The translations under genes and the position numbers were made by a program. Source: an uncultured Opitutia bacterium (GTDB lineage Bacteria > Verrucomicrobiota > Verrucomicrobiia > Opitutales > UBA953). From it: DNA of 64,000 nt. Numbering within the stretch: position 1 is the first letter of the stretch; each line of letters starts with the position of its first letter. The notes below the pieces were generated by a model, which worked only from the letters and a program-made list of their open reading frames with translations, ran no database searches and had not been told where the DNA came from. The stretch is taken from assembly GCA_945957395.1 (NCBI GenBank), contig CAMFKE010000005.1, positions 126,001 through 190,000 on the forward strand. Direction: 5' to 3'. Positions 45,046-47,479 of this stretch are shown here, in pieces.

Positions 45046-46566
45046 TCACTGAGCATTGAGGGAATAGCCTTCCTCTCCGTGGTCGCTGATATCAAGCCCC
45101 TGGGTTTCCGATTCCTCAGCGGGACGCAGACCGACAAGCCGCTTAACAACCAGGGCGATGATTGCAGTGGCCGCCAAAGACACTGCCACCGTCAACGCCA
45201 TCGCTTTCAACTGAACCCACCACAAACCGCCATTCGTAATCATGCCGGCGAGTCCATTTGAGACTGCGGCATGACCCGTAAGATTCGAATTGATGGACGC
45301 ATCGGCAAAAACGCCGGTCAACAGAGCACCCAGTGTTCCGCTCACGCCATGAACACCGAAAGCGTCGAGCGAATCATCAAGCCCAAGGCGCTTCTTTATA
45401 TACATGACAAAAACAAAGGACAGCAACGCAGCCAACATGCCCGAAACCATGGCAACACTGGGCCCGCAATAGCCGGCGGCCGGGGTGATCACAACCAAGC
45501 CGGATATGACGCCGGAGCAAAAGCCGAGAACACTGGCGTGGCCGCGAACAATCCATTCGGCCATCCCCCAAACGAAGGCGGCAGCGGCGGCGGACATGGT
45601 CGTGGCGGTGAAGGCGTTTGCAGCAATCGCATCGGCACCCAACGCGCTACCGGCGTTGAACCCATACCAACCGACCCAGAGCATCCCGGTCCCGACCACA
45701 CACAAGACCATGCTATGCGGGGAAAACGGACGGCGCCCAAAACCCGACCGAGGACCGACAATAATGCAAAGAAGCAGAGCAGACCACCCTGAGGTCATGT
45801 GAACCACCGTGCCGCCGGCAAAGTCCAGAGCCGGAATCGAAGCCGAAGGATTCCAAACCCCGTTCATGCACCCCGTAGCCCCCCAAACCATGTGAGCCAT
45901 CGGGATATAGACACAAAGCATCCAAAGTGCTGAAAAAAGCAGGACTGCGGAAAACTTCATACGCTCCGCCACAGCGCCGAAAATCAAGGCGGGAGTAATG
46001 ATGGCGAACATCAACTGATACATGGAAAAGACATTTTGCGAGACCCATGGCGCATAGTCGGCATTGGGTGCGGATAAAACCCCGCGCAGAAAAGAGTACT
46101 CCAAGCCGCCCAAATATGGGGCTACACACGTACCCTCAAAGCTCTTTCCAAATATCAAACTGTAACCAAATGCCCACCAAATCAGTGCATTCATACCCGC
46201 CAGTCCGAAGCACTGACCGGCAATGGAGAGAACATTTCTGGTTCGGACCAGGCCACCGTAGAAAAGAAACAACCCGGGCATGGTCATGAAGAGCACCAAC
46301 GCCGTATTTATCATCATGAAGGCGTTATGCCCGGGTTCCGCCAGATTTGCCAATGGACGCTCCGCCTTCCCCGCACCCGCGGGAGCGGGAACATTGGCCA
46401 CTGCTGACTCCAAATCAGATACCCTGCGCTCCAAGGTTGCAGCAGCTTGAGTGCCCGACGGCGAGCTTTCGGCTTCCGCGCCGGCCACATCCACGGCGCA
46501 AGTCAGCACCAACAAAGATAGCGTAACGCCAAGTCTTAGGAGTCGTGAGATCATGACGCCAGCCAT
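45046..46566 (-). CDS. amt: Ammonium transporter (Amt family)
   Basis: The 506-residue protein has an N-terminal signal (MISRLLRLGVTLSLLVLTCA), a short coiled-coil (ATLERRVSDLESAVANV) and then 11 membrane helices. Amt blocks visible are PGLFLFYGGLVRTRNVLS, DFAGGTVVHMTSGWSALL, with the first pore His, and LDAFGVHGVSGTLGALLTG, with the second. It conducts ammonium into the cell. Two starts are possible: ATG 46566 (MAGVM) and ATG 46554 (MISRLL). A sigma-54-like box abuts the first, which would favour the second. No glnK (PII) gene is next to it in the window. Codon use is less GC-rich than in most neighbours. Confidence 0.94.
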   Translation of the reverse strand: MAGVMISRLLRLGVTLSLLVLTCAVDVAGAEAESSPSGTQAAATLERRVSDLESAVANVPAPAGAGKAERPLANLAEPGHNAFMMINTALVLFMTMPGLFLFYGGLVRTRNVLSIAGQCFGLAGMNALIWWAFGYSLIFGKSFEGTCVAPYLGGLEYSFLRGVLSAPNADYAPWVSQNVFSMYQLMFAIITPALIFGAVAERMKFSAVLLFSALWMLCVYIPMAHMVWGATGCMNGVWNPSASIPALDFAGGTVVHMTSGWSALLLCIIVGPRSGFGRRPFSPHSMVLCVVGTGMLWVGWYGFNAGSALGADAIAANAFTATTMSAAAAAFVWGMAEWIVRGHASVLGFCSGVISGLVVITPAAGYCGPSVAMVSGMLAALLSFVFVMYIKKRLGLDDSLDAFGVHGVSGTLGALLTGVFADASINSNLTGHAAVSNGLAGMITNGGLWWVQLKAMALTVAVSLAATAIIALVVKRLVGLRPAEESETQGLDISDHGEEGYSLNAQ

Positions 46567-46581
46567 GCAGCTATCATGCCA
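46566..46581 (-). promoter_or_regulatory. Sigma-54-like promoter box before amt
   Basis: On the minus strand the bases from 46581 to 46566 read TGGCATGATAGCTGCA. The sigma-54 consensus is TGGCACG-N4-TTGCA/T; here the -24 half matches 6 of 7 and the -12 half 4 of 5, with exact spacing. It fills the space between the upstream gene's terminator and the first amt ATG. Initiation 12 bases past the -12 C would fall near 46555, next to the second ATG (46554). Nitrogen control of amt by sigma-54 is well known elsewhere. Confidence 0.5.
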
Positions 46582-46613
46582 AAAAAAGGCCCCCGACTAA
46601 AAAGCCGGGGGCC
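46581..46613 (-). terminator. Rho-independent terminator after the coiled-coil protein gene
   Basis: GGCCCCCG (46588-46595) pairs with CGGGGGCC (46606-46613). On the minus strand seven T follow (46581-46587). It ends the pilus-type operon and lies directly before the amt promoter region. Confidence 0.88.
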
Positions 46614-46636: not shown

Positions 46637-47479
46637 CTAGGGTTCCTTACGGGTAAATACCTCCTCAACGGCGGACTTGAGCTTCTCGCGCCGAGCCTCG
46701 TTGGCCAGCAAACGCTGCTTCAACTCCTTACGCTGACCAAGCAAATCCAGATAATACTTCACATCCCGATCGGACACCTGAAAAGAATAGCCGGCCTTCA
46801 AAGTATAAAGCGCCTTGCCCGGCTCCATCGTGGCAATGAACTCGTAGGCAGGACGATCCAAGTGCAGTTTCGCCACACCTATCGGACCGGAAATCTTATT
46901 CAGCTTTTGCAGATCTTCAGCCAAAGAAATCTCCTCCTTGAGAGATGCAATCTTGAGCTTACTCTTCTCAATCTCAGTGGCGCTTCCGGCCGACTCCGCC
47001 TGCAACTCCACAAGCTTGGTCTCCTCGCGGCTCAGTTCATCGACAGCGGCAACCTTACGCTTTGCCATCGAAACCTTCAATTCATTCGACCGCTTCGATT
47101 CGCGCTGAAAGCGTTCGAGAATCGTGGCAATCGCATCAATTGAAGCATCGTCATCAGCATCAAGAAGCAGCGGCTCAACAATCGCCGCGCCCTTGAGCTC
47201 CAGCATAAAATACTCCCTGGATTTCGCAATCTCAGCATCGTACCGATTTATGGCATAGACACGCAGGCGAGCCTGAGACTTCGGATAGTAGGCGGTCACC
47301 GACCGGGCAACATCCGAAAATTCAACCTTCATGCGATCACCCTCCGAATCCACTGCCGGCGCGGACTTGGCAGCGGAGGCCCCTACGGCCGTCGCAGCAG
47401 CATCAGCCTTTTGAGCATGAGCGGCGACCGCCAGACTTAGCGCCGCAAGCGACGCCCCGTAAACCCTTAAAGGTATCAT
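46637..47479 (-). CDS. Periplasmic coiled-coil protein of unknown function
   Basis: The 280-residue product has a signal peptide (MIPLRVYGASLAALSLAVAAHA) and, in the middle, a long coiled coil (about 115-185: RESKRSNELKVSMAKRKVAA, EETKLVELQAESAGSATEIE...). The C-terminal part has KALYTLKAGYSFQVSDRDVK and another helix. I do not recognise the family. It starts 24 bases after the secretin gene and precedes the operon's terminator, so it is probably an accessory of the secretin machine. Confidence 0.75.
   Translation of the reverse strand: MIPLRVYGASLAALSLAVAAHAQKADAAATAVGASAAKSAPAVDSEGDRMKVEFSDVARSVTAYYPKSQARLRVYAINRYDAEIAKSREYFMLELKGAAIVEPLLLDADDDASIDAIATILERFQRESKRSNELKVSMAKRKVAAVDELSREETKLVELQAESAGSATEIEKSKLKIASLKEEISLAEDLQKLNKISGPIGVAKLHLDRPAYEFIATMEPGKALYTLKAGYSFQVSDRDVKYYLDLLGQRKELKQRLLANEARREKLKSAVEEVFTRKEP

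Follow-up and report, generated by a model that had tools for sequence, protein, structure and literature searches.

The ammonium transporter gene amt of an uncultured Opitutia bacterium follows so closely on a terminator and a sigma-54-like promoter sequence that the locus raises three questions: where its RNA starts, which ATG opens the reading frame, and whether the message carries a leader at all. The window analyzed here is the whole 64,000-nucleotide stretch of DNA that contains the locus. From sequence comparison we consider it very likely that the site upstream of amt is a working sigma-54 promoter, which would fire the gene under nitrogen shortage with RNA starting at, or within about two bases of, the AUG at 46554. 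The features concerned are as follows.

45046..46554, minus strand: amt, ammonium transporter with an N-terminal signal-like segment (PF00909, 2.6e-103); promoter geometry and a comparison of N-termini move its start to ATG 46554.
46555, minus strand: predicted +1, 12 nt past the C of the -12 GC, with an uncertainty of about 1-2 nt.
46564..46566, minus strand: upstream in-frame ATG (ATG 46566), whose A is promoter position -11.
46566..46581, minus strand: predicted sigma-54 (-24/-12) promoter TGGCATGATAGCTGCA, 10/12, GG-N10-GC; unique exact genome match to TGGCAYGNNNNYTGCW, with the same element before amt in relatives.
46588..46613, minus strand: intrinsic terminator stem-loop after the coiled-coil gene, 11 bp, nine G-C, loop of 4; T run on to 46581.
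46637..47479, minus strand: upstream gene for a 280-aa protein without a Pfam match, read as a coiled coil in the sequence-only reading, downstream of a secretin gene.

The genes upstream of amt run in the same direction as amt, and the stop codon of the coiled-coil gene (46639-46637) is separated from ATG 46566 by 70 nt and from ATG 46554 by 82 nt. The terminator in this gap has its stem-loop at 46613-46588 and a run of seven Ts at 46587-46581, and folds at -39.2 kcal/mol (z -2.7); the minus-strand context of terminator, promoter and amt start is GGCCCCCGGCTTTTTAGTCGGGGGCCTTTTTTTGGCATGATAGCTGCATGGCTGGCGTCATGATC. A 70-base gap and a terminator at 46581-46613 between the two genes had been claimed by the sequence-only reading, and both are borne out by the coordinates and the fold. 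The terminator would close the preceding secretin-type unit. Intrinsic terminators leak, however, and with co-directional genes ending 70-82 nt before amt, read-through or an unrecognised upstream promoter could make most of the translated amt mRNA longer, such that the leaderless species would be minor even though the sigma-54 promoter works. We regard this as unlikely, given that the terminator is strong, with its seven Ts, and that no sigma-70-type site, i.e., no acceptable -35/-10 pair, was found between 46500 and 46900, for which reason a sigma-70 promoter for amt was rejected. Moreover, neither ATG is preceded by a Shine-Dalgarno (SD) sequence, so a longer leader would bring no obvious benefit, and five loci of the same family (L007, L011, L012, L015, L020) also have a terminator-like hairpin shortly before the site.

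The promoter site reads TGGCATGATAGCTGCA on the minus strand (46581-46566) and was scored against the consensus TGGCACG-N4-TTGCW, of whose 12 conserved positions it matches 10, with the GG-N10-GC spacing exact. The first T of its -24 element (46581) is the last T of the terminator T run. Match, spacing and shared T had all been claimed beforehand, and each was confirmed. In the whole 2.79-Mb genome, the single mismatch-free match to TGGCAYGNNNNYTGCW is the amt site. Taken alone, nevertheless, this site is not significant and is weak evidence, because for the loose core TGGCAYRN5TGC chance alone predicts 0.47 occurrences in the window, against one seen. Genome-wide enrichment of the motif was rejected as support, since the loose core is rarer in the genome (5 matches) than in the reversed control (38 matches). 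A hexamer inside the site, CATGAT, fits a -10 element at four of six positions, as might be expected if a sigma-70-type or other promoter occupied the same bases, with RNA from ATG 46566 and an incidental sigma-54 match. The lack of an acceptable -35/-10 pair, and the fact that the -24/-12 bases are the ones conserved in relatives, make such an overlapping promoter most improbable.

With the C of the GC taken as -12 (46567), the sigma-54 promoter would set +1 at 46555, leaving one base before ATG 46554; if +1 lay one base further on, the RNA would begin exactly at the AUG. This follows the placing of the GG and GC boxes at -24/-12 relative to the transcription start (PMC4842269). Since the A of ATG 46566 is promoter position -11, that codon would be absent from a sigma-54 transcript. 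The earlier claim that ATG 46566 is the wrong start is upheld by its position inside the promoter and by the N-terminus read from 46554, which is in line with the signal-peptide-like N-termini of the relatives (compare MISRLLR... with MNSLLRT...). The near-leaderless geometry that had also been proposed recurs in relatives and at an NtrC-type activator gene. By this geometry the amt message, with a predicted leader of 1 nt, an AUG start and no SD upstream of ATG 46554, probably has almost no leader.

Among the amt genes of relatives the start codon is well fixed, because in 8 of 10 genes of the amt1 type no in-frame start other than the proximal ATG is listed ahead of the conserved core, and in genes of the amt2 type this ATG directly precedes the signal-like N-terminus. 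These observations bear on the possibility that the promoter works and the true start codon of the window gene lies further downstream, the first TTG/GTG being about 40 nt past +1, behind an ordinary leader. In-frame TTG and GTG codons at +40 to +46 would allow for this, and SD sequences cannot mark starts in the window's genome. A downstream start would, however, delete the signal-like N-terminus that relatives keep right after the proximal ATG, and with no second in-frame start listed in those eight amt1-type genes we find it barely credible.

Of 40 first starts called crudely in the window, 3 had an SD tetramer, as compared with 11.6% of random 13-nt windows, and the assembly was searched for an SSU (16S) rRNA gene, which was not found. 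Verrucomicrobia bacterium IMCC26134 and Akkermansia are listed in one study among SD-scarce organisms that keep CCUCC (PMC10783764). Because SD sequences are scarce in the lineage, we infer that a promoter touching the start codon would cost little in the window's genome.

To place the amt site in a wider setting, we collected amt loci from 95 related genomes (71 matched, with loci for the best 30) and from a genome collection (best 80 of 588, with records from Opitutae, Opitutaceae and other Verrucomicrobiota), a sample that leans to close relatives. Of the matches, 12 lacked the N-terminal core, 10 were duplicates and 13 stood at contig ends; removing these left 118 non-duplicate Verrucomicrobiota amt genes, 76 of which are preceded by a -24/-12 site (TGGCA..GC, at least 9/12). 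The other 42 have no such element in the scanned region, often where a PII gene precedes amt. For 114 of the 118 rows, 300 nt or more of upstream sequence was available; the site, scored in the same manner, occurred in 74 of these 114 upstream regions on the sense strand, but in only one of 114 in each of the antisense, coding sense and coding antisense controls. The placement of this promoter next to amt is thus widespread among related bacteria, as judged from their sequences. Two figures speak for a chance match without function: the 0.47 loose cores expected per window, and the 38 to 5 by which the reversed control outnumbers the core in the genome. Such a match is nevertheless contradicted already, and practically negligible as an explanation, given that the sole exact genome match stands at amt and that the site occurs in 74/114 upstream regions of relatives but in 1/114 of each of the three controls.

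The distance from the predicted +1 to the first in-frame ATG was exactly 4 nt in 39 of the 76 genes, i.e., in 31 amt2-type and 8 of the 10 amt1-type genes. The two paralogue groups are split by a long, well supported branch and their spacers are unlike, e.g., aaaggggtat followed by CGCC-ATG versus taataaaaag followed by CATT-ATG. On a tree of 74 of the 76 genes (one without an in-frame ATG and one under 50% identity were left out), predicted leaders measured -1 to 14 nt in 61 and 24-91 nt in 13, and three changes are needed between the short and long states. By record titles, the long-leader genes belong mostly to Verrucomicrobiaceae, Akkermansiaceae, Prosthecobacter, Spartobacteria or unplaced Verrucomicrobia and mostly fall outside Opitutae; the one exception within Opitutae is L103, with 75 nt. 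For the amt of Opitutaceae bacterium EW11 the predicted leader is -1. The window amt, with its leader of 1, sits on a lone long branch (0.56). In four amt1-type loci (L088, L094, L100, L121) another motif, GCAAGCGA(C/G)TTG, is conserved some 30 nt ahead of the -24 element.

Whether the genome has the factors for such a promoter had been left by the sequence-only reading as a check on its proposal. A single copy of rpoN is present with its AID, CBD and DBD domains (PF00309, PF04963, PF04552), as are two NtrC-type activators with strong PF00158 matches and the REC-AAA-HTH_8 arrangement (Response_reg and HTH_8); the genome also has one PII gene and one amt. Among the relatives, rpoN was found in 89 of 95. 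The eight genomes of genus g3 (G002, G006, G010, G014, G018, G022, G026, G029) all have rpoN and none has an amt match. The idea that rpoN is kept for amt alone was accordingly rejected.

We then searched the window's own genome for GGCAYRN5TGC-N11-21-ATG, and obtained 10 matches (reversed control, 7). Long frames followed from just two of these ATGs, i.e., those of amt and the NtrC-type activator gene at G000:C9:135096, and both frames run to 501 aa behind a predicted leader of one base; the remaining eight, with frames of 2-132 aa only, were set aside. The activator site, CGGCATGCGGCGTGCA, matches at only 9 of 12 positions. Among 30 loci of activator orthologues, predicted leaders of 1-7 nt were found in 20, all in the window's family (20/23, versus 0/7 outside); of the other ten loci, three have a distant site only and seven have no site. 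Most of the genus-g2 activator loci have a common spacer, ctacttttact followed by CA, and the ATG shifts by 1-4 nt; a fixed RNA start near the AUG would predict this pattern. At L002, where the activator is encoded at 1051-2559, positions 1024-1051 hold the sigma-54-like site and the one-base predicted leader of this NtrC-type gene, an arrangement that suggests autoregulation. The product of the gene at G000:C9:135096, which carries the same promoter geometry as amt, is most likely the activator that would act on amt.

From the elements found in the DNA, namely promoter, terminator, rpoN, activators and a conserved element close to the start codon, we infer promoter function, exact RNA start, acting activator, nitrogen signal and ribosome loading as follows. 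RNA polymerase-sigma-54, opened by an NtrC-type AAA+ activator, would set the RNA start on AUG 46554 or no more than about two bases from it. Such a message would be leaderless or nearly so, and its translation would begin without SD contact, as seems usual in this genome.

Sigma-54 promoters are activator-dependent, and an upstream activator sequence is usual, although not universal. Upstream activator sites within the coiled-coil gene had been named as a point to check, and the search near the window amt and inside that gene yielded none better than chance. Many amt2 genes of relatives have an 18-bp palindrome, TTGC-N10-GCAA, whose start lies 81 nt upstream of the -24 T; loci with the palindrome at this fixed distance include L013, L026, L100 and L109. 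It is perfect in 8 of 73 upstream regions (the rows, out of 76, that had a listed start and 200 nt of upstream sequence), as compared with 0.5% of shuffles, and is a candidate activator operator. The nearest such site in the window has one mismatch and lies 343 nt upstream, inside the preceding gene; sites of this kind are not enriched in the window (17 seen versus 30.9 expected). The activator site of the window amt would either have diverged or lie elsewhere, at a distance, and this is the main gap in the case.

A wider site search in relatives, with loci for 30 of 48 sites, identified a similar sigma-54 site before a PII gene in G001 (predicted leader 42) and before a protein that by its N-terminus we take to be glutamine synthetase in G001 and G013 (predicted leaders 38 and 34). 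No matching site was found for the PII gene of the window genome among the genome-wide motif matches. By its predicted sites, the sigma-54 regulon looks like a nitrogen regulon in which not all leaders are short. The best reading of these sequences is a sigma-54/NtrC-type nitrogen circuit whose mRNAs would have little or no leader, in a lineage scarce in SD sequences. With predicted leaders of exactly 4 nt predominating in two amt paralogue groups and leaders of 1-7 nt at the activator gene, the distance from -12 to the AUG may be under selection. We offer more tentatively, as a possibility short of an even chance, the proposal that the whole activator-dependent circuit, NtrC-type activator and ammonium transporters together, is kept on such mRNAs under this selection, with starvation messages read by the leaderless route and others with longer leaders.

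Leaderless mRNAs and sigma-54 control of amt are each known already. Enteric glnK-amtB is under NtrC/sigma-54 control and has a leadered mRNA with an SD site. The window locus resembles it in having an ammonium transporter behind a -24/-12 promoter, a REC-AAA-Fis activator and rpoN, but differs in that its amt has no room for a leader or SD and no adjoining PII gene. The nearest published parallel is Leptospira interrogans, with a sigma-54 promoter at amtB, two activators and many mRNAs with 0-10 nt leaders (PMC5243855). That organism belongs to a different phylum and has a different binding motif, and neither leaderless amtB nor conserved spacing is stated in the sections of that source drawn upon. 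Sinorhizobium meliloti has leaderless AUG starts, as predicted here, and many RpoN promoters, but the two are not linked in the sections drawn upon (PMC3616915). The wider finding here is that amt and the NtrC-type gene, as two sigma-54 targets, share a conserved layout predicted to give messages with no leader or almost none. In the open-access literature we found no description of a conserved leaderless sigma-54 mRNA layout, of which single cases may be in print, nor of sigma-54 control of amt in Verrucomicrobiota.

Few bacterial promoters are as easily recognised as those of sigma-54, and the fixed geometry of the latter lets DNA alone give the leader length. For dozens of mostly uncultured Opitutae, the prediction is a starvation regulon expressed from leaderless messages, in which start-codon calls need care. 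Such a regulon would be a clean system for asking whether translation without a leader is in its own right an element of a stress response.

Two further observations were made. In G001, the gene of a signal-peptide-like 496-aa protein (L198, G001:C4:113090) resembles the window locus: a terminator-like hairpin is followed closely by a sigma-54 site, from which a leader of 1 is predicted. Secondly, G+C drops from about 0.66 to 0.50-0.58 between 44500 and 58000 of the window, with third-position G+C of 0.55-0.69, versus mostly 0.8-0.95 elsewhere. This block contains amt, secretin-type genes and the genes for PRPP synthetase, LpxD, OmpH-like and Omp85 proteins, and the housekeeping genes within it argue against a simple foreign island.
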